The notes below the pieces were generated by a model. The model had not been told where the DNA came from. It was given only the letters and a program-made list of their open reading frames with translations, and did no database searches. The translations under genes and the position numbers were made by a program. 64,000 nucleotides of DNA from Mycolicibacterium tusciae JS617 (GTDB taxonomy: Bacteria; Actinomycetota; Actinomycetes; Mycobacteriales; Mycobacteriaceae). Location: assembly GCF_000243415.2 (NCBI RefSeq), contig NZ_KI912270.1, forward strand, positions 2,852,001 to 2,916,000. The letters run 5' to 3'. Positions 32,099 to 41,291 of this stretch are shown here, piece after piece (position 1 is the stretch's first letter; each line of letters opens with the position of its first letter).

Positions 32099-32902
32099 CT
32101 AAGCGGCGGAGGGCTTGCGCTTCGACCACCAACGACCGTGCAGACGTTGGCAATCTCCGACCCGCAGCGGCGCATCGCCGCCGAAGTCCGGCCGCACGGC
32201 GACCGCGGCCGGGATTTCGGGCACACCTTCTCCGGTGATGACGATGGTCGCCAGCCCGGCGCCGTTTGCCGCGCGCAGCCCGGAGGCCGAGCCGCTGACC
32301 GCGAGAGCGTTCTCAGCGGTGATCCCCAGTTCACACAGGGCGAGGCGGTGAGCTTCGGGATTCGGCATCGTCTTCTTGACGTCCTCGGTGGTCGCCACCA
32401 TCTCGACGATTCCCTCGCCGACCAGCTGCCGCACCAGGGGCTCCGCCCAGCTCCGCTGCCCGCTAGTCACGACGGCGACCTGCACACCCGCCGCGAAGGT
32501 GTCTGCGACGAAGTCGACAAGACCGGGGCGCGGGGCGAGATCGCGGTCGAGGATCAGCTCGTCGAACAACATCGTCTTGGTCGTGTAGACCTCGTCGGCG
32601 AGCAGCTTGGTCAGCACATCGGACTCGGTCGCCACACCGCGCTTGCGCAGTTCAGCCGCGACCCGCTGCCGTTCATCGGTGAGTGCCAGCAGCTGGCGGT
32701 AACGCGTCACCGACCATTGGAAGTCGAGACCATGCGCGGCGAAAGCCGCGTTGTACGCTTCCCGGTGGCCGTCGCATTCGATGTCAGTAAGGGCATCGAG
32801 GTCGAAGATCACGGCGCGTAGCGGGCAGCCGGAGCCAGCAGGCGACGCGGAATCCCACCAGAAGCGGCCCGCGCGCCAAGTCGTCTCATGCGTTGTAGGC
32901 AT
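32099..32902 (-). CDS. HAD-superfamily hydrolase, phosphoglucomutase-like subfamily
   Basis: About 267 aa. The HAD motif I reads AVIFDLDALTD, with both aspartates present. Motif II is VAVVTSGQRS (Ser/Thr after a hydrophobic strand), the Lys of motif III is probably in DVKKTMPNPEAH, and a GSASGLRAANGAG motif stands where the acidic motif IV normally is. The usual DD/GDxxxD acidic pair there is replaced by SGSASG, so metal binding and phosphatase activity may be altered. The start is uncertain: GTG 32920, ATG 32902, or an internal GTG just before the motif I strand. Divergent from the two-component pair. Confidence 0.75.
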   Translation of the reverse strand: MPTTHETTWRAGRFWWDSASPAGSGCPLRAVIFDLDALTDIECDGHREAYNAAFAAHGLDFQWSVTRYRQLLALTDERQRVAAELRKRGVATESDVLTKLLADEVYTTKTMLFDELILDRDLAPRPGLVDFVADTFAAGVQVAVVTSGQRSWAEPLVRQLVGEGIVEMVATTEDVKKTMPNPEAHRLALCELGITAENALAVSGSASGLRAANGAGLATIVITGEGVPEIPAAVAVRPDFGGDAPLRVGDCQRLHGRWWSKRKPSAA

Positions 32903-33007
32903 GCAGCTAGGGTGGCCCACGTCACAGCATTCTTACCTCCCCCATTTGGGGGATCGGCGATGCCAACTTCCCCTGCCCCAGAAAATGCCAGCTCTAAGGT
33001 GGTGAAC

Positions 33008-33670
33008 ATGTCCGAAAGCCCTCCGGTGCGTCTTGTGCTCGTCGATGACCACGAGATGGTCATCGAGGGTCTCAAGGCGATGCTCGCGGCCTTTCAGGAG
33101 CGTGTCGAAGTTGTCGGACAGGCCATCGGCGCTGAGCGGGCGCTCAGCGTGGTCGACGAACTCAATCCCGACATCGTGCTGTCAGATGTGCGCATGCACG
33201 GCTCCAGCGGGCTGGACCTCTGCATGGAGCTGCGCGAGCGGGATCCCAAGCGCAAGGTCGTGATGCTGTCGGTCTACGACGACGAGCAGTACCTGTTTCA
33301 GGCCCTGCGCGTCGGCGCGTCCGGGTACCTCCTGAAGAGCATCAGCAGCGACGAGCTCGTTCGTCAGCTCGAATTCGTCCACCGCGGCGAGACCGCGATC
33401 GATCCGAGCATGGCGGCCAGGGCGGCGGACACCGCCGCACGGATGCAGCGTGACGAATTCTGGCCCGGTGCGCGGCAGGGGTTGACACAGCGGGAGAGCG
33501 AGATTCTGTCGTACGTCGTGAACGGTCTGTCCAACCGCGCCATCGCCTCCAAGCTGGTGATCGGCGACGAGACGGTCAAGACCCATCTGAGCTCCATCTA
33601 CCGCAAGCTCGGGGTCAATGACCGCACCGGCGCAGTGGCAACAGCCCTTCGCGAGGGCATTTACCAGTGA
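33008..33670 (+). CDS. LuxR/NarL-family response regulator
   Basis: 220-aa DNA-binding regulator. Receiver domain ~8-125: acidic DDHE (about 12), phospho-acceptor Asp about 59 in IVLSDVRMHG, and conserved Lys in YLLKSIS. The LuxR helix-turn-helix is at ~155-205 (LTQRESEILSYVVNGLSNRAIASKL, VKTHLSSIYRKLGV). I chose ATG 33008, which has AAGGTGG five bases upstream; an earlier in-frame ATG at 32960 would add MPTSPAPENASS. Its stop overlaps the GTG of the GAF kinase (GTGA), so they form a coupled two-component system. Targets cannot be read from sequence. Confidence 0.92.
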   Translation: MSESPPVRLVLVDDHEMVIEGLKAMLAAFQERVEVVGQAIGAERALSVVDELNPDIVLSDVRMHGSSGLDLCMELRERDPKRKVVMLSVYDDEQYLFQALRVGASGYLLKSISSDELVRQLEFVHRGETAIDPSMAARAADTAARMQRDEFWPGARQGLTQRESEILSYVVNGLSNRAIASKLVIGDETVKTHLSSIYRKLGVNDRTGAVATALREGIYQ

Positions 33671-34902
33671 GCCAGGAAGCGCGTCCGCCCATCGCCGGCT
33701 CCAACGTTCAGGACCTCGTCGACACCGATCGCGAACTCGCATTGCTGCGCGAACTGATCCAGGCCGCATCCAAGGGTCCCGGAGTCGAGCCGCTGGCCGC
33801 CGCGGCGGCGCGGATGATCACCGCGGCCACCGCCAGCGATGTGTGCTTCGTGCACGTCCTCGATGACAGCGACCGGTCATTGACGCTCGCCGGCGCGACA
33901 CCGCCCTTCGACGCCGAAGTGGGCAAGATCCGGCTGCCGTTGGGTCAGGGCATATCCGGCTGGGTCGCCAGCCACCGCGAGCCCGTCGTGATCACCCAGG
34001 ACAAGGAGACCGATCCGCGCTACATGCCGTTCGAGTCCCTGCGCGGCAAGGACTTCACGTCGATGGTCTCGGTTCCGATGGAGACCGACCCTGGCGGGCT
34101 GGTCGGCGTGCTGAATGTCCACACCGTCGACCGGCGCGAGTTCACCTCGCGTGACGTCGAACTGCTTCTGGTGATCGGCAGGCTGATCGCCGGCGCCCTA
34201 CATCAGGCTCGATTACACCGACAGCTGGTGGCGCGTGAACGGGCACACGAGAACTTCGTCGAGCAGGTGATCGAGGCGCAGGAGCTCGAACGGCGGCGGC
34301 TGGCCGGTGACATTCACGACGGCATCTCGCAGCGGCTGGTCACCCTGTCGTACCGGCTCGACGCGGCGAGTCGCTCGGTGCCCGACGACCCGGGGGCTGC
34401 CGCCGAACAGTTGGAGAAGGCCCGCGAATTGGTCGACCTGACGTTGCAGGAGGCCCGCGCCGCGATCGGTGGGTTGCGACCTCCTGTGCTCGACGACCTC
34501 GGCCTTGCCGGTGGGCTGGCCAGCCTCGCGCGTTCCATCCCCCAGATCGGTATCGACGTCGACCTGGTGGAAACTCGTGTGCCCGACCACATCGAGATCG
34601 CCTTGTACCGGATCGCTCAGGAATGCCTGCAGAACGTCGTCAAGCACGCGAAGGCCACGTCCGCTCGGCTCACCTTCACTGTGGACGCCGGGGACACCGG
34701 GGAGATCGCCCGGCTCGAAATCATCGACGACGGAGTCGGTTTCGACACATTCGAGCATCCGCTGGGCAGCGACGAGATGGGCGGTTACGGCCTGCTGTCG
34801 ATGGCCGAACGAGCCGAGATCGTCGGCGGCAGACTCAACATCCGCTCGCGCCCGGGTTCGGGCACTGCGGTGACGGCGACGATCCCGCTGCCCCGCAGCT
34901 AG
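33667..34902 (+). CDS. GAF-domain sensor histidine kinase (HisKA_3/NarX type)
   Basis: 411-aa soluble kinase partner of the LuxR regulator. A GAF domain spans ~45-190 (VCFVHVLDDSDRSLTLAGATPP, GISGWVASHREPVVI), followed by a coiled helical linker rich in Arg/Glu. Phospho-acceptor His about 217 lies in GDIHDGISQRLVTLSYRLD. The HATPase domain has RIAQECLQNVVKHAKAT (N box), DDGVGFD and GGYGLLSMAERAEIVGG. No membrane helix is seen, so it senses a cytosolic signal through GAF, as DevS-type kinases do, though only one GAF is present and no haem-ligand assignment is possible. Its stop codon overlaps that of the convergent MarR gene in CTAG. Confidence 0.92.
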   Translation: MSQEARPPIAGSNVQDLVDTDRELALLRELIQAASKGPGVEPLAAAAARMITAATASDVCFVHVLDDSDRSLTLAGATPPFDAEVGKIRLPLGQGISGWVASHREPVVITQDKETDPRYMPFESLRGKDFTSMVSVPMETDPGGLVGVLNVHTVDRREFTSRDVELLLVIGRLIAGALHQARLHRQLVARERAHENFVEQVIEAQELERRRLAGDIHDGISQRLVTLSYRLDAASRSVPDDPGAAAEQLEKARELVDLTLQEARAAIGGLRPPVLDDLGLAGGLASLARSIPQIGIDVDLVETRVPDHIEIALYRIAQECLQNVVKHAKATSARLTFTVDAGDTGEIARLEIIDDGVGFDTFEHPLGSDEMGGYGLLSMAERAEIVGGRLNIRSRPGSGTAVTATIPLPRS

Positions 34903-35411
34903 AAGTCGCCGGAGTTGCGGCGCAGTGTCTCGATGGACTCCGCGAGCGAGCGTGACTGGCTGTCAGACATGCCGATATCGGCGAACACCTCGGTGTTGAG
35001 TGTGACTGTGGCGTCTTCCACCGTCGACCGGCCGAGATCAGTGATCTGCACCAGGGTGGTGCGTCCGTCGGTCGGATGGGGGATGCGTTCGACCAGGCCG
35101 TCGGCCTCCAGCCGCCGGATGGCATGCGTGACGCTGGTGACGTGTACCTGCAGCCGGTCGGACGCCTTGGTGATCGGCAGCGCGCCGCCGCGGCTGAACG
35201 CCAGCAGCCGCAACAATTCGTATCGGGAAAAGCTGAGGTCGTACGGCCGCAGCGCATTCTCGACCCGGGCCAGCAGAATCTGGTGCGCCCGCATCACCGA
35301 CGTGACCGCGACCATGCCGTCGGCAACGTCGCCCCAGCCGGAGCGCTCCCAGTTGGTGCGCGCCAACGCGATGGGATCGCGCTTGCGCGGCCACGGAGGT
35401 TGGGAGGGCAC
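34899..35411 (-). CDS. MarR-family transcriptional regulator
   Basis: 170-aa winged-helix regulator. The DNA-binding region is around residues 65-125 (SRYELLRLLAFSRGGALPITKASDRLQ, VTSVTHAIRRLEADGLVERIPHPTDGRTTLVQIT). It starts with GTG 35411. It lies 53 bp downstream of the aminotransferase on the same strand, so it could be the last gene of the SigL-linked operon or an independent unit. In M. tuberculosis a MarR-like gene (Rv0737) follows sigL-rslA directly, as I recall. That would make the four enzyme genes between rslA and this gene an insertion relative to M. tuberculosis, and this gene a conserved flank. Confidence 0.87.
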   Translation of the reverse strand: MPSQPPWPRKRDPIALARTNWERSGWGDVADGMVAVTSVMRAHQILLARVENALRPYDLSFSRYELLRLLAFSRGGALPITKASDRLQVHVTSVTHAIRRLEADGLVERIPHPTDGRTTLVQITDLGRSTVEDATVTLNTEVFADIGMSDSQSRSLAESIETLRRNSGDF

Positions 35412-35464: not shown

Positions 35465-36502
35465 TCAGTGGAGCGCGGCCCCCACGGCGGTCAACACTGC
35501 CCGGGTGGACTGGCGGCTACCGACGGTGATGCGCACGCCACCGTCGGCGTAGCCGCGGACATTCAATCCGGTCTCGGCGAACACCTCCCGCCACTTCCGA
35601 CCCCACGGCGGCAGGTAGACGAAGTTGGCGTGCGTGTCAGTGCTGTAAACACCCATGGCTCTCAGCCGCATCCACAGATAGCGACGCTCGACAGTGATGA
35701 TCCGGATACGTTGTTGCAGCTCGCTTTCCGCATCGTACGACGCGGCGACCGCCACCAGTCCGGTGATGGCGATACCGAACGGTTGCTGCATGGTCCACAG
35801 TTTGCGAGCCAGCCCGGGGGCGCAGAAACCGTAGCCGACGCGAAGCCCGGCCAGCCCGTACGCCTTCGAGAAGGTTCGCACTACCACCACGTTCGGGTGC
35901 CGCGCGACGAGCGCCGGACCATCGATTCGATGGTGCGGCGAGACGAACTCCACATAGGCCTCGTCGAGCACCACGACGGTTCCAGCCGGGACTCGGCGAA
36001 GAAACCGCTCGATATCTGCCGGCGAGTCAATGGTTCCCGTCGGATTATGCGGTCGGCACAGCACCACGACGCGGGCGTTCGCGGCCGCGTCGGCCATGGC
36101 ATCGAGATCGTGATGGCCGTGCGCGTCGAGGCCGACGGTCACCGACTCCAGCCGCGCCATCTTGGCGAAGATCGGAAAGCCGTCGAATGTCGGCGACGCC
36201 ATCACCATCCGGTCACCCGGATTGGTGAGCGCGTTCAGCACCTGCATGATGACACCTGTGGCGCCGACCCCGATGATGACCTGCTCGTCGCACACACCGA
36301 CATGGCCGGCAATCAGGGTGCGGAGCCGCTCGGGCAGGAACTCCGGATACCGATTACCCGAGTCGATCGCGCAGACAAGCGCAGACCGAACCGTCGACAG
36401 TGGTGGAAAGGGATTCTCGTTGAGCGACAGCGCCATCGGGTTCACCGCGCCGGGTAAAGCTCCGACGACAGCATCCGTCACATGCCGATTCGGTGTGGAC
36501 AT
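35465..36502 (-). CDS. class I/II PLP aminotransferase, HisC-like
   Basis: 345-aa fold-type I PLP enzyme resembling histidinol-phosphate or aromatic aminotransferases. Substrate/PLP motifs: LSLNENPFPP near the N-terminus, VGVGATGVIMQVL, CRPHNPTGT, VVLDEAYVEF, and Schiff-base Lys about 212 in RTFSKAYGLAGLRVGYG. ATG 36502 overlaps the stop of the upstream KAS III gene by one base (TGATG), so they are coupled; GTG 36520 is an alternative. As the fourth enzyme gene of the operon it is expected to aminate a ketone made by the ThDP/KAS enzymes. A primary role in histidine synthesis is unlikely because no his genes are nearby. Confidence 0.88.
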   Translation of the reverse strand: MSTPNRHVTDAVVGALPGAVNPMALSLNENPFPPLSTVRSALVCAIDSGNRYPEFLPERLRTLIAGHVGVCDEQVIIGVGATGVIMQVLNALTNPGDRMVMASPTFDGFPIFAKMARLESVTVGLDAHGHHDLDAMADAAANARVVVLCRPHNPTGTIDSPADIERFLRRVPAGTVVVLDEAYVEFVSPHHRIDGPALVARHPNVVVVRTFSKAYGLAGLRVGYGFCAPGLARKLWTMQQPFGIAITGLVAVAASYDAESELQQRIRIITVERRYLWMRLRAMGVYSTDTHANFVYLPPWGRKWREVFAETGLNVRGYADGGVRITVGSRQSTRAVLTAVGAALH

Positions 36503-37512
36503 CAGCCTCGACCGCCCCACCTGACGGCGGCGGCTCCCGCGAAGTCCCCGGCATGGGCGAAAGCCGACATCAGCACGAGGTCGCCCCTCTTCAGCTGGCC
36601 TTCGGTGATGGCGCGGTCCAGGTTGACCGGAATTCCCGCGGCGAACAGATTCCCACAGTCCTCGAACGTATCGCGGTGCCGTTCCTTCGGAAGTTCGAGC
36701 GCCTCACGCCAGTTCCGCAGGAACGCGCGATTCGGCTGATTGGTGACCAGGAGGTCAAGATCCTTGGGCTTCACACCGATTCGGTCGCAGACGGCGTAGG
36801 AGACTTCGGGCACCTGGCGGTTACCGCGGGCCAGCACCTTGGTGATCTTGCTTTCGGTGAAGCCGATGCTGGCCTCCCCTGGCCCGGGCTGCCACCATTT
36901 ACGAGGCGGATCGACCGCGAGTGTCATGTCGCCCGCGAACTCCCCATACGTGCGGCATTCGATGTCAAGGATCGGCGACTCGTCCGACAGGGTCACCAGC
37001 CCGACCGCGGCGCCATCGCCGGGTACCGACGCCTGGGCCTTGGTCCGAACCGTCGGCTGGTCGAACGCCTGGCCCGCCGCGTTCTGGGCTATCGCGACCA
37101 GCGCGGTTCGGCCTTCACCCGACTCGATCAGATTGCGTGCGACCTTAAGCCCGAGTACGAATGCCGCGCATCCGCCGTTGTGCAGGTCGAGGACCCAATT
37201 CGGTTTCATGCCAAGGCGATGCGCCATTCCACCACCACCACCGTAAAACGGCATGTCCGGCATCTGGGTGTGGGTGATGAGGATATCGGCACCGGCGACC
37301 ATGTCGTGACCGTGGCGTTCGATCAGCCCGGCCGCGGCGCGCTCCACCATGTCGATGGCGGTTTCGTCCTCGGCCACATGATGACGGAACTTGGGCGCCC
37401 GGAACATCACATTGTCCCGCAGGTCGTCAGACTCGGCGAACTGCGCGTAGTAGTCGGCGCTGATCGGTTCTCCCGGCAGATACGTCGACACATCGAGAAG
37501 GCTGACGCTCAT
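36502..37512 (-). CDS. KAS III (FabH)-like acyl-condensing or acyl-transfer enzyme with altered catalytic triad
   Basis: 336-aa thiolase-fold protein. The nucleophile Cys, about 115, lies in LHNGGCAAFVLGL, the position of FabH Cys112. The third triad residue Asn (about 288) is in EDCGNLFAAGIPVNL. The second residue, normally His in HQAN, is Asn here: TNQPNRAFL (about 256). Loss of that His argues against ordinary malonyl-ACP decarboxylation and favours an acyltransferase or unusual C-C bond role. No acyl carrier protein is encoded beside it. It follows the SRPBCC gene by 7 bp and is coupled to the aminotransferase. Confidence 0.85.
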   Translation of the reverse strand: MSVSLLDVSTYLPGEPISADYYAQFAESDDLRDNVMFRAPKFRHHVAEDETAIDMVERAAAGLIERHGHDMVAGADILITHTQMPDMPFYGGGGGMAHRLGMKPNWVLDLHNGGCAAFVLGLKVARNLIESGEGRTALVAIAQNAAGQAFDQPTVRTKAQASVPGDGAAVGLVTLSDESPILDIECRTYGEFAGDMTLAVDPPRKWWQPGPGEASIGFTESKITKVLARGNRQVPEVSYAVCDRIGVKPKDLDLLVTNQPNRAFLRNWREALELPKERHRDTFEDCGNLFAAGIPVNLDRAITEGQLKRGDLVLMSAFAHAGDFAGAAAVRWGGRG

Positions 37513-37519
37513 GAGTTCC

Positions 37520-38191
37520 TCACTTCATCCAATCCGGCTTGACGGCAAGGCCGTTGCTATGGCGATATTCGGCGATCGCCTTGAGGTTCTTCAACTCCAG
37601 TAGGTGACCCGGGCCGAACATGTCCCAGAAATCCCCCACCCACACCGGCCGCTTGGGCGGCGCGGTCTCCGGGTACGGGTTCTTGTCGTAGAACGGATGG
37701 TGGCAGTTTGTCCACAGCACCACCGAGCCCGGCTTGTCGAATACCAACTGCGCATCGATGATTCGCATCAGATAGATCATCCAGAGGTGCTTGCCCTGAT
37801 CCCAGGCGCAGTGATAGTCGATCGTCCGCGATTCGGGATTGGCGACAGTGCGGGTGTAGATCGGGCTGCCGGTCTCCCCGCCGAGTTTGTCATAGGCCAC
37901 CCACAGGCCCGGTTCCTCCGTCGGCTCGAAGCCGCGCAGGCTGTAGGTCCACTCCTCCAGGCAGCGAGTGTCGGCCAACCATTCGTAGAGCTCATCTGGC
38001 GGGCAGTCCACATAATCATTTACGGTGCAGTACGTTCCGAACACCTCATCGTGCGGATAGACCGAACGCATCATCTCCATGATGATCGGTGTCGCCTTCT
38101 CCCTTGGCGAGGTCTCGACGCGGATCACACCGTCGATCGGATCGGTGGTACCCCGATCGACTGCGATGTCCTCAAGTGCGGGCAGTGACAT
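37520..38191 (-). CDS. SRPBCC/START-like protein
   Basis: 223 aa; no family is recognised with certainty. The stretch around residues 55-200 has SRPBCC character: NDYVDCPPDELYEWLADTRC resembles the usual start of such folds ('v..p.e.vw..ltd...w'), followed by alternating strands rich in Trp/Tyr and an amphipathic C-terminal helix. These folds bind hydrophobic ligands and include polyketide cyclases and aromatases, so binding or cyclising the pathway intermediate is plausible but unproven. ATG 38191 has a strong AAAGGAG site. It overlaps the end of the ThDP gene by 20 bp, showing tight operon packing. Confidence 0.65.
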   Translation of the reverse strand: MSLPALEDIAVDRGTTDPIDGVIRVETSPREKATPIIMEMMRSVYPHDEVFGTYCTVNDYVDCPPDELYEWLADTRCLEEWTYSLRGFEPTEEPGLWVAYDKLGGETGSPIYTRTVANPESRTIDYHCAWDQGKHLWMIYLMRIIDAQLVFDKPGSVVLWTNCHHPFYDKNPYPETAPPKRPVWVGDFWDMFGPGHLLELKNLKAIAEYRHSNGLAVKPDWMK

Positions 38192-39902
38192 ATGAGTGCT
38201 CCTTTTTGGTGATGGACGGTTTGGTGGCAGCACCGGCGCCGTTGCCGAGGAAGGCTGCGAATGGGGGCACTTCATCCGCGGAGCACTCGAGACTTATTAC
38301 CGATGGGCCGTCGAGGGCGAGTGCGGCCTCGAGCGCGGCCGGCAACGCGTCGAGATCGTGAACGTCCACCGATCGCAGCTCCGGGAACATCGCCGCCAGT
38401 CCGGCACCCAACCGGCTCGGTCCGAACCGGTTGTAGCTGTAGACGTCGCCGTAGAACTGTTGCTCACGCGTCACACACATCGCGTGGGCATGGTTGTCGA
38501 ACAGCAGAAAGGTGACCGGCAGCCGGTATTGCAGTGCCGTGTGAATCTCCATGCCGTGCATGAAGAATGAGCCGTCACCGGCGATGACAACGGTGCGCCC
38601 CCTTGAGTCTGCACCGCGGCCGAACGCCACGCCGATCCCTGCGCCGAAGCTGTAGCCCATCCCTCCCATGCCCAGCGCGACGATGAACCGGCCATCGCGG
38701 CGGACCGGCAGGTGATGTATCGCCGAGGCGCCGATGTTGCCGGCATCGACGACGACGTCGGATCCATCGGGCAGTATCCGATCGAGCACCGTCATCGCAT
38801 CGCGGTACCGAATCCCCGGCCCACTGTGGTCCGGCGTGCGCAACTCCGTACGCCGTACCGTATCTGGCACGCGGACGCGGGCCGGGCGGCCTCGGCCTGA
38901 CAGTGCGGCGGTGAGCATCGACAGCGATCCGCGCAAGTCATCGGTGTGTACGTGGGTGCACGGCAGGTGCGGCGTCTCGGCGCCGATCGAGTACACGCGC
39001 GTCGACGCCAGAGCGTCGTCCAGACCCGCCCGGGCCGTCACCGACAGCCGGGTACCGACCACGAGGCACAACGCGCTCTCGGCAATGGCATTGGCGACGC
39101 TCGGATGGCCCATCACGCCAGTCACTCCCAGCGCGGACGACGATCCCATCCCGGGCGTGCCCGCGACATCTTTGGCGTCGGGCACGCACGCCACCCGCGC
39201 CCGCAACAGCGAACGCAACTGCTCGAGTTCTGCGCGAGCGTCATCACGAGCCACCTGTTCGCCTGCGATGATCGTGACCGACCCGTCGACCCGCCGAAGC
39301 GCCCGCGCGATCGGATGCGGATCGCCGATGTGCACGTCCCGCTGATCGACGAAGACGTCGCTGCCGTTTACCGCGCGAAGTGCCGCCTGCTGAATATCCT
39401 TGGGCAGCAACAGCACTGCCGGTCCTCCGGAGCGGGCGGCGGCAACCGCCTCCGGCAGCGCCGTGATGATGCCTTCGGGTGTCGTCACCCGCTTGCAGTA
39501 GACCGACACCGCCGAGAACAGCGCCGCGGCGTCGAGTGCGCCGTTGCGACCGCTGGTGTCCTGAAACGCACCCCGCCCGTCCAGGGAGGTAGGTGCCTGC
39601 CCGATCAGCGCCAGCACCGGAATCCGGCTCGCGAAGGCCTCTCCGAGGCCCGGCACTGTGTTGAGGCATCCGCCACCCGATGTCGCGGCCACGACGCCGA
39701 GCCCGGCCCCACTGCGGCTGTATCCGTCGGCCATTGTCGCAGCGGAGAATTCGTGCTTGGCAAGCACTGCCGTGATGTCCGTGCGATAGAACGCCGCATC
39801 GTAGAGGTCTTCGATATTGGCGCCGTCGACGCCGAAAATGTAGCCGGCGCCGATCCCAGCGAGATACTCGACAATGTGGTCGACAACTCGATGCCTGGCC
39901 AT
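38172..39902 (-). CDS. thiamine-diphosphate-dependent enzyme, acetolactate-synthase-like
   Basis: 576 aa, three-domain ThDP enzyme, first gene of the four-enzyme operon. The catalytic Glu that activates ThDP is about residue 51 in AKHEFSAATMADGYSRSG. The central domain contains GTRLSVTARAG. The C-terminal PP domain has the GDGS motif (VIAGDGSFFMHGME, about 442) ending in the expected LLFDN metal-binding Asn. Such enzymes decarboxylate 2-oxoacids and transfer the acyl anion to an aldehyde, ketone or acyl thioester. It is not the housekeeping acetolactate synthase: no ilvN subunit is adjacent and it is preceded by a SigL-type promoter. Ribosome site AGGTG lies upstream of ATG 39902. Confidence 0.88.
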   Translation of the reverse strand: MARHRVVDHIVEYLAGIGAGYIFGVDGANIEDLYDAAFYRTDITAVLAKHEFSAATMADGYSRSGAGLGVVAATSGGGCLNTVPGLGEAFASRIPVLALIGQAPTSLDGRGAFQDTSGRNGALDAAALFSAVSVYCKRVTTPEGIITALPEAVAAARSGGPAVLLLPKDIQQAALRAVNGSDVFVDQRDVHIGDPHPIARALRRVDGSVTIIAGEQVARDDARAELEQLRSLLRARVACVPDAKDVAGTPGMGSSSALGVTGVMGHPSVANAIAESALCLVVGTRLSVTARAGLDDALASTRVYSIGAETPHLPCTHVHTDDLRGSLSMLTAALSGRGRPARVRVPDTVRRTELRTPDHSGPGIRYRDAMTVLDRILPDGSDVVVDAGNIGASAIHHLPVRRDGRFIVALGMGGMGYSFGAGIGVAFGRGADSRGRTVVIAGDGSFFMHGMEIHTALQYRLPVTFLLFDNHAHAMCVTREQQFYGDVYSYNRFGPSRLGAGLAAMFPELRSVDVHDLDALPAALEAALALDGPSVISLECSADEVPPFAAFLGNGAGAATKPSITKKEHSYVTART

Positions 39903-39944
39903 ATGTCACCTGTCCCCTATGCTCGTCGAGCGGCTTATACAGAG

Positions 39945-39972
39945 GACACGAGTGGCTAGTGGATTTGGTTCA
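39945..39972 (-). promoter_or_regulatory. predicted SigL promoter for the ThDP-SRPBCC-KAS-aminotransferase operon
   Basis: On the minus strand, TGAACC (39967-39972), a 16-bp spacer, and CGTGTC (39945-39950). This matches the consensus I recall for SigL promoters in M. tuberculosis (TGAACC with CGTgtc). It starts 15 bp after the rslA stop and predicts transcription about 35 nt before the ThDP start codon. The same -35, the same spacing and a CGT core occur before sigL itself, which supports it. Confidence 0.75.
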
Positions 39973-39986
39973 CCCCGTGGCTCGAA

Positions 39987-40715
39987 TCACAGTTGCTTTT
40001 CCAGCAGTACCTGACCCGAGTCAGACGAAACCAGTTGCACAGCAGCGATTTCCTCCATCGGGAGGGGGGTGTTTGCGCTGGGCAGCGCCGTCGCACCGGA
40101 CAGTCCGAGCCACGTCGCGACCTGACTCTGACTGCCGTCGCGGCCGACGATGACCATGCCCAGGTTCTGCGGCGGCGCGTCGCGTCGGCCCCAGTCTCCG
40201 TACGTGCACGCCATATCGATGCGGGTACCCCACCCGTAACCGGTCATGCTGATGGTCGCGTTGATCGGTGTCTCAGACACCTTCGTCATCTCCATCGCGG
40301 CGACCTGTCCTGTGCCGGTCTGCATCCCGAGACTGTCCGGGCGGATCGCGATCACCAGACCGATCGCCAGCACGGCCGCCGCCACGGCGAGCGCGGCAGT
40401 GGTCACCCACCGGGAGCGCCTGCGACGCGCGTCGACGCGGTGCAGCAGCGAATCCAGCACCTGCGGTCGCAACTGCGGCTCAGCAGAGTCCCCGTCGAGA
40501 GACGCAACGTCGGCGGAGTCGAGTTTGGCGAGCAAGGGCGGGATTTCACCCAATTCCGCCACGGCGGCGCGACACCGCGAGCACGTCTGCAGGTGCGCTT
40601 CGTATTCTCGGCGGTCGTCTGCGGATAGGGAGCCAAGGACGTAGGCGGCGTCCCACGTCGCATAGCGATCGTCGTCCACGTCGTCACCCCCTCTGGGTAG
40701 CCCGAACAGTGTCAT
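39987..40715 (-). CDS. rslA: anti-sigma-L factor RslA (ZAS domain, membrane-anchored)
   Basis: 242-aa anti-sigma factor holding SigL inactive at the membrane. The cytosolic N-terminus has the zinc-binding motif H41-x3-C45-x2-C48 (HLQTCSRC), a membrane helix lies at ~104-126, and the extracytoplasmic domain ends in AAVQLVSSDSGQVLLEKQL, close to M. tuberculosis Rv0736. In the M. tuberculosis protein zinc release on oxidation frees SigL; conservation of the ligands suggests the same here. Its ATG overlaps the sigL stop (ATGA), giving stoichiometric co-translation. The downstream operon begins just after it. Confidence 0.94.
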   Translation of the reverse strand: MTLFGLPRGGDDVDDDRYATWDAAYVLGSLSADDRREYEAHLQTCSRCRAAVAELGEIPPLLAKLDSADVASLDGDSAEPQLRPQVLDSLLHRVDARRRRSRWVTTAALAVAAAVLAIGLVIAIRPDSLGMQTGTGQVAAMEMTKVSETPINATISMTGYGWGTRIDMACTYGDWGRRDAPPQNLGMVIVGRDGSQSQVATWLGLSGATALPSANTPLPMEEIAAVQLVSSDSGQVLLEKQL

Positions 40716-41245
40716 CTCCTCACCCCCATCTCCTGCAGCTTGAGTCGCAGGGCCCGCATCCCGTAGTGCAGCCGCGACTTCACGGTGCCCTCGGCGATGT
40801 CCAGTTCGGCGGCGATCTGCGCGGTGCTGGCGCCTTGGTAATACGCGCGGCTGATGACCGCCCGGTGGTCCTCGGACAGCTGGGCCATGGCCTCAATGAG
40901 CAACATGCGGTCCAACGCCGTCTCCACCTCGTCGGGCCCCGCGTGGTCGGCCGCCTTCTCCATGTCGGGCGTGCCCGATTCGCTGCGGAACCTCGCGCTT
41001 CGTCTCTCGTCGATAACGAGGTTACGCGCGACGGTGAACAGCCACGCCCGCGCGGATCTCTCTTTGTCAGCGGTCACCTCGGGGTGGCGCCACGCACGCA
41101 GTAGCGTCTCCTGCACGACATCCTCCGCCCGAGCCGTATCCCCGGTGAGCCGCACGGCGTAGCGCCAAAGAGCTGCGGCGTGCTCTTCATAGAGCACCCG
41201 CATGACCTGGCCGTCCAGTCGTGCCCTAGTCTCCGGGTCGTCCAA
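40712..41245 (-). CDS. sigL: ECF sigma factor SigL
   Basis: 177-aa extracytoplasmic-function sigma factor with regions 2 (LYEEHAAALWRYAVRLTGD, AEDVVQETLLRAW, ARNLVIDERRSARF) and 4 (AMAQLSEDHRAVISRAYYQGAS, TAQIAAELDIAEGTVKSRLHYGMRALR). It starts with TTG 41245, seven bases after GGAGG; an internal ATG further in would remove part of region 2. It is followed by its anti-sigma factor with start-stop overlap. A SigL-type promoter sits just upstream, indicating autoregulation as known in M. tuberculosis. Confidence 0.94.
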   Translation of the reverse strand: MDDPETRARLDGQVMRVLYEEHAAALWRYAVRLTGDTARAEDVVQETLLRAWRHPEVTADKERSARAWLFTVARNLVIDERRSARFRSESGTPDMEKAADHAGPDEVETALDRMLLIEAMAQLSEDHRAVISRAYYQGASTAQIAAELDIAEGTVKSRLHYGMRALRLKLQEMGVRR

Positions 41246-41263: not shown

Positions 41264-41291
41264 AATACGAGGTTGCGGGGCATCCGGTTCA
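41264..41291 (-). promoter_or_regulatory. predicted autoregulatory SigL promoter of sigL-rslA
   Basis: On the minus strand, TGAACC (41286-41291), a 16-bp spacer, then CGTATT (41264-41269). The predicted start lies near 41257, so the GGAGG ribosome site would be at the very 5' end of the mRNA and the TTG start about 12 nt in. It shares its -35, spacer length and CGT core with the promoter at 39945-39972. Confidence 0.75.

Follow-up and report, generated by a model that had tools for sequence, protein, structure and literature searches.

A probable carbazole operon beside sigL-rslA in mycobacteria, perhaps for a membrane antioxidant made under SigL/RslA control

Among described regulatory systems, the closest to the one considered here is the SigL-RslA pair of Mycobacterium tuberculosis. 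There, the anti-sigma factor RslA binds zinc via an HXXXCXXC motif and releases it on oxidation (PMC2877774; papers are cited here by PMC number). SigL, an extracytoplasmic function (ECF) sigma factor, is known as well to be among the regulatory targets of the Rip1 protease, and cells require it to grow when iron is low; in the same study, the SigL gene sets defined earlier were not seen in a sigL mutant, implying that inducing conditions matter (PMC10449499). Among described pathways, the closest are those for the carbazoles carquinostatin (cqs) and neocarazostatin (nzs) of Streptomyces. In the carbazole scheme of PMC7466098, an aminotransferase converts tryptophan to indole-3-pyruvate, a thiamine diphosphate (ThDP)-dependent enzyme joins this with pyruvate, an enzyme resembling β-ketoacyl-acyl carrier protein synthase III (KASIII) carries out a condensation with a 3-hydroxyacyl thioester, and the synthase CqsB2 then acts. 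Here we describe an operon containing all four of these enzyme classes in a 64,000-nt stretch of Mycolicibacterium tusciae JS617 (NZ_KI912270.1, 2,852,001-2,916,000; this whole stretch is called the window, and positions are numbered within it). The operon lies directly downstream of sigL-rslA, and we consider it probable, from sequence comparison, that it is a SigL target making a carbazole.

All seven genes of interest (sigL, rslA, the four enzyme genes, and a MarR-family gene after them) are on the minus strand (Table 1), and the gene for the SRPBCC protein overlaps that for the ThDP enzyme by 20 bp. Shared with the M. tuberculosis SigL-RslA regulon (Hahn 2005 and Dainese 2006, as cited elsewhere) are the HXXXCXXC zinc motif, a target encoding a type III polyketide synthase (PKS), and the downstream MarR gene; the locus differs in that rv0737 stands immediately after sigL-rslA in M. 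tuberculosis, with no four-gene operon between (PMC13002591), an order that the earlier note on this window had rightly given. With cqs and nzs it shares the aminotransferase, the ThDP enzyme, the KASIII-like enzyme, and the CqsB2-type synthase. Unlike them, it lacks an acyl carrier protein (ACP), a classical KASIII, a prenyltransferase, and an isopentenyl diphosphate isomerase, its KASIII-like enzyme has Asn in place of His, and it adjoins an ECF sigma factor gene with a matching promoter. The conserved carbazole core is described as NzsJ-NzsI-NzsH, with the ACP and classical KASIII accessory to it (PMC7466098). In a chlocarbazomycin cluster, the SRPBCC carbazole synthase is accompanied by a HisC-like aminotransferase, a ThDP enzyme, KASIII, and an ACP (PMC10100901).

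A third comparison is with Tsukamurella, a genus of the same order. Antioxidative lipocarbazoles from Tsukamurella pseudospumae appear in the reference list of PMC7466098, and we found the ThDP-SRPBCC-KASIII trio on a plasmid of Tsukamurella tyrosinosolvens; in contrast to the locus described here, no sigL is present in the stretch around that trio. A search of the open-access literature yielded no published gene cluster for lipocarbazole, no mycobacterial carbazole, and no redox-responsive ECF sigma factor coupled to a carbazole operon; in the carbazole review PMC7466098, "mycobacter" does not occur.

The strongest argument for a promoter comes from its conservation. We examined 80 mycobacterial loci, the best 80 of at least 492 confirmed SRPBCC relatives and thus a sample that leans to close relatives, and 20 further operon regions belonging to different genera of the same family. 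SigL is encoded beside the operon in 59 of the 80 (60/81 rows when the window is counted). Once plasmid loci are added, sigL lies in the fetched stretch of 73 operon loci, and 72 of these have a usable ThDP gene start. The locus excluded, L036 (Mycolicibacterium houstonense; L036:4170-6014), has an aminotransferase match preceding a truncated ThDP match, unlike other sigL-linked mycobacterial loci, which may be a rearrangement or an assembly fault. TGAAC-N17-CGT occurs no more than 160 bp upstream of the ThDP start in 72/72 of these operons, compared to 0/73 upstream of the SRPBCC gene, 1/72 for KASIII, 0/73 for the aminotransferase, 0/58 for MarR, 0/73 for rslA, and 0/52 for map. A stricter form, TGAACY-N15-17-CGTRT, was found at the ThDP gene in 66/72 and at none of the other six genes; reversed, this pattern occurs 0 times in the ThDP upstream regions, and shuffled ThDP upstream regions gave 0.0014. 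By this conservation the operon promoter is real, and its dependence on SigL is predicted. In 9 of the 72 loci, the ThDP start follows the CGT by 12 to 16 bases, a spacing that may fit a leaderless transcript.

The motif also keeps its place when the locus is rearranged. In six loci (L021, L022, L025, L029, L032, and L063), about 0.9 kb separates rslA from the ThDP gene, and the motif remains at the ThDP gene. One of these intervals (L021:3357-4082, Mycolicibacterium peregrinum) holds a methyltransferase-like frame on the opposite strand. Outside Mycobacterium, TGAACY-N15-17-CGT is found upstream of the ThDP gene in 14/14 loci with sigL-rslA near the operon: Nocardia farcinica (L086), 12 loci of one genus taken to be Nocardia, and one of another genus (L106). 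These come in several arrangements, with sigL-rslA sometimes on the opposite strand. The motif is absent from all 12 related operons (Tsukamurella, Rhodococcus, Nocardia, Embleya, and other genera) that have no sigL in the fetched stretch. Between sigL-rslA and the operon, L090 encodes an EXLDI-family protein and the ATPase and permease of an ABC transporter (L090:2758-5124), and frames resembling these by eye lie at L086:1847-4384.

Within the window, the earlier note had proposed a SigL-type TGAACC-N16-CGTGTC before the operon and had seen no further TGAACC with CGT 16 bp downstream, apart from that of sigL. Both points hold. There are exactly two copies of TGAACC-N16-CGT, one preceding the operon at 39972-39948(-) and one preceding sigL at 41291-41267(-); the match, shared between the operon and sigL's own promoter, is also conserved. 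The operon copy begins 14 bp beyond the rslA stop (39987) and 70 bases ahead of the ThDP ATG (39902). What we take to be the M. tuberculosis SigL consensus, TGAACC with CGTgtc, fits both sites. The count itself is weak evidence, since the shuffled window has a mean of 0.62 copies and 14/100 shuffles reach two. Across the genome, the exact pattern occurs 88 times, compared to 41 for the reversed control, and the strict TGAACY-N15-17-CGTRTM occurs 6 times against 6. True sites are not separable from background in this way, and we dropped genome-wide counting as proof of a promoter: with the short pattern so common and the strict form level with its control, the sequence of a single genome is no proof, and conservation is. 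A matrix was also run over the window. It was built from 76 distinct sites upstream of sigL (85/93 loci), none from the M. tusciae genome and none identical to a window site; these were chosen by fixed TGAAC and CGT letters, so that the information content there is by construction. Among 127,932 window positions, it ranked the sigL site first (35.47) and the operon site second (13.75). Comparison with relatives, which the earlier note had proposed, bears the site out.

On the enzyme side, the SRPBCC protein is the most telling. It had no match in a Pfam search, and its only relative by sequence in the PDB at E <= 1 is CqsB2 (6ipv, E 1.4e-46), the carbazole synthase of carquinostatin. Foldseek with an AlphaFold model of moderate confidence (predicted local distance difference test, pLDDT, 67.6) also placed 6ipv first (3.4e-14; next match, 3.9e-5). 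The residues proposed as catalytic in CqsB2, Tyr144, Tyr172, Glu105, His206, and Glu209 (PMC7466098), correspond to Y140, Y168, D101, H196, and E199 here, all invariant in 81/81 rows; four of the five are identical, with Asp at the place of Glu105. The protein is thus CqsB2/NzsI-like and a putative carbazole synthase. The ThDP enzyme corresponds at the family level to CqsB3/NzsH, with the Glu of its KHE motif kept in 77/80 rows and GDG in 80/80, and is predicted to carry out the acyloin condensation of indole-3-pyruvate and pyruvate. The aminotransferase, whose best PDB relative is 4r2n, a "putative phenylalanine aminotransferase," is predicted to convert tryptophan to indole-3-pyruvate; the NzsD homologue in a published carbazole cluster is also HisC-like (PMC10100901). 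In the KASIII-like enzyme, Cys115 and Asn288 are kept, and by alignment to FabH it is the catalytic His that Asn258 replaces, in 80/80 rows of relatives. All 50 of the Foldseek matches listed for its AlphaFold model (pLDDT 75.9) are synthases of the FabH, PqsBC, or PqsD type. In sum, the operon's pathway matches that of carquinostatin and neocarazostatin and, judging by these homologies, most likely makes a carbazole. A second, paralogous carbazole-type cluster, in Mycolicibacterium brisbanense (L074:7715-9792), has neither motif nor sigL. Genes for an ACP and a fatty-acyl-AMP ligase separate its KASIII gene from that of the aminotransferase, pointing to the use of long acyl chains in that cluster. 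PMC8965627, considered as a link between SRPBCC and ThDP proteins under UV, proved unrelated in the excerpt of its text.

The earlier note suggested that the pathway is an extra of this species, which is not supported. An SRPBCC match at E <= 1e-20 is present in 266 of 396 Mycobacterium genomes (nine of the matches weak), and in a sample of the family a match at E <= 1e-15 was found in 152 of 401 genomes, from 16 of 31 genera. With the nine weak matches set aside, a strong SRPBCC match is left in 257 Mycobacterium genomes; SigL (E <= 1e-55) is found in 251 of them and in 77 of the other 139, counts that are uncorrected for phylogeny or incomplete assemblies. SigL occurs without any SRPBCC match in 71 genomes. 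We inspected 20 operon-free sigL loci, taken from the best-listed SigL matches among these genomes; the MarR gene directly follows rslA in 19 (about 25-180 bp between matched ends), and no MarR was found in the remaining one, L126. This is the arrangement of M. tuberculosis, and in its simplest reading it looks like loss of the operon. As to whether MarR acts on the operon, an electrophoretic mobility shift assay in PMC13002591 used the Ms_1488 promoter fragment as a nontarget control. MSMEG_1488 is the ThDP gene only by our counting of the gene order back from Ms_1492; if this is right, the control argues against binding of MarR to the operon promoter. MSMEG_1488 is also named in passing, in an excerpted source, as up-regulated by both G-quadruplex ligands. 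On the other side of MarR in the window (32888-34902), a LuxR-type response regulator and a sensor kinase, judged by eye from their translations, adjoin it on the opposite strand.

How might the switch work? H41, C45, and C48 of RslA, the HXXXCXXC zinc motif, are present in the window, as the earlier note had seen, and in 60/60 aligned rows, marking the protein as a zinc anti-sigma factor. The motif, its conservation, the gene order, the enzyme homologies, and the catalytic residues, all computed, suggest a course of events in which SigL binding, the substrates, the product, and an antioxidant role are predicted. Either oxidation at the zinc site of RslA or a regulated proteolytic step would free SigL, and SigL-RNA polymerase would then start operon transcription at TGAACC-N16-CGTGTC. 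SigL would also fire its own promoter, giving positive feedback; we infer that release of SigL switches on both the operon and sigL, and the operon may be induced by oxidative stress. Once the aminotransferase and ThDP enzyme had acted, the KASIII-like enzyme would join the acid intermediate to an acyl thioester by condensation, leaving the SRPBCC protein, as carbazole synthase, to close ring A. We imagine a carbazole that is hydroxylated or an ortho-quinone and bears a chain derived from the acyl group; such a product would most likely dissolve in lipid and scavenge radicals. By analogy with other carbazoles of this family, which PMC7466098 presents as antioxidants that scavenge radicals, the compound would likely serve to protect the envelope; this is the least certain step. 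One can go further and envision that what SigL-RslA has long controlled at its own locus, in mycobacteria and related bacteria, is an antioxidant carbazole anchored in the membrane and produced as needed once the zinc redox switch opens. The M. tuberculosis lineage would then have lost the pathway, retaining only the sensor, its sigma factor, and a MarR gene whose place beside them would be a relic of the operon. We hold this wider proposal only tentatively, at somewhat less than even. If it is true, SigL-RslA acquires a specific chemical output beyond the polyketide and envelope genes to which it has so far been linked, a large group of mycobacteria gains a metabolite class, and the presence of Rv0737 beside rslA in M. 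tuberculosis is explained.

Several observations weigh against a SigL-driven carbazole operon. The lean of the locus sample, the uncorrected co-occurrence counts, and the lack of genome-wide enrichment of the strict pattern have been given above. Upstream of sigL itself, the strict form is found in only 54/73 loci and the relaxed form in 65/73. The margin in the matrix scan is small: the position ranked third lacks CGT at -10 and still scores 12.15. Among operons without sigL in the fetched stretch, 7/30 carry the strict motif, all seven of them mycobacterial; the relaxed form is likewise found in 7/30, with L037 replacing L064, and upstream of KASIII in 2/32. These operons would suit a promoter read mainly by another ECF sigma factor, such as SigM, SigE, or a second SigL-like protein, as would the reported similarity of SigL, SigE, and SigH sites (PMC4821874). 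A second SigL-like match at E <= 1e-55 does exist in the M. tusciae genome, and such a protein may share the promoter motif. We nevertheless regard another sigma factor as quite improbable, given that the same bipartite site precedes sigL in 85/93 loci as well as the operon in 72/72, and that outside Mycobacterium the motif follows the sigL neighborhood across rearranged loci (14/14 compared to 0/12). It is less probable still, to the point of being hardly credible, that the motif is a conserved piece of the rslA 3′ end and that the operon is transcribed by readthrough from sigL-rslA. The mere 14 bp between motif and rslA stop in the window would fit this, whereas the motif stays with the ThDP gene across the gap of about 0.9 kb and, outside Mycobacterium, where sigL-rslA lies elsewhere or on the opposite strand.

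The remaining doubts concern the product. The acidic residue of the synthase differs (Glu to Asp), the ThDP enzyme and aminotransferase are assignable to broad families only, and no dedicated ACP or classical KASIII, which supply the acyl donor in Streptomyces clusters, is encoded between sigL and MarR in the window. The change of the KASIII His to Asn is the more pointed in that both KASIII relatives beside the Embleya SRPBCC gene retain His. An altered KASIII-like enzyme, together with a different aryl pyruvate, would make another acyloin-derived aromatic under the same SigL control, and an aminotransferase whose nearest structure is annotated for phenylalanine would suit such a pathway. Set against this, the SRPBCC protein matches CqsB2 alone in the PDB by sequence and keeps its proposed catalytic residues as described above, and the same trio is found in Tsukamurella, a lipocarbazole-producing genus. 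We therefore think a noncarbazole product unlikely, though the most plausible of these alternatives, and retain a SigL-driven carbazole operon as the better account.

Table 1. Genes and promoter elements of the sigL-rslA-operon locus (window positions)
Feature	Position	Strand	Basis
sigL, ECF sigma factor	40712..41245	-	NF007227, E 9.1e-79, 263.5 bits vs cut-off 202
rslA, zinc anti-sigma factor	39987..40715	-	Pfam zf-HC2; H41/C45/C48
ThDP-dependent carboligase, putative CqsB3/NzsH role	38172..39902	-	Pfam TPP_enzyme N/M/C; gene order
SRPBCC protein, CqsB2/NzsI-like carbazole synthase	37520..38191	-	PDB 6ipv match; Foldseek; residues
KASIII-like condensing enzyme, putative CqsB1/NzsJ role	36502..37512	-	Family match; C115, N258, N288
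HisC-like aromatic aminotransferase, putative CqsB7/NzsD role	35465..36520	-	Family match; GTG start at 36520 uncertain
MarR-family regulator following the operon; positional counterpart of M. tuberculosis Rv0737	34899..35411	-	Family match; conserved position; orthology by position
Operon promoter, -35 element TGAACC	39967..39972	-	TGAAC-N17-CGT in 72/72 sigL-neighbored operons with usable start
Operon promoter, -10 element CGTGTC	39945..39950	-	Sequence and conservation
Predicted sigL autoregulatory promoter, TGAACC-N16-CGTATT	41264..41291	-	Motif match

Elsewhere in the M. tusciae genome, one of the six strict sites serves as a positive control. It begins 49 bases before a Pks11-like type III PKS gene (L129:921-2028 / L132, G000:C4 2376569-2377673), whose closest solved relative is Pks11 (E 4.7e-160); SigL is reported to act on pks7/pks10 (PMC13002591, citing Hahn 2005). 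Of the remaining four strict sites outside the operon, one (L127) falls within the last part of a frame, some 136 bases ahead of the next gene's start, and three are inside longer frames. Among 17 PKS loci of at least 66% identity, which include the window genome's own gene and some genomes twice, nine have TGAAC-N16-18-CGT at -43 to -49, six of them in the strict form.

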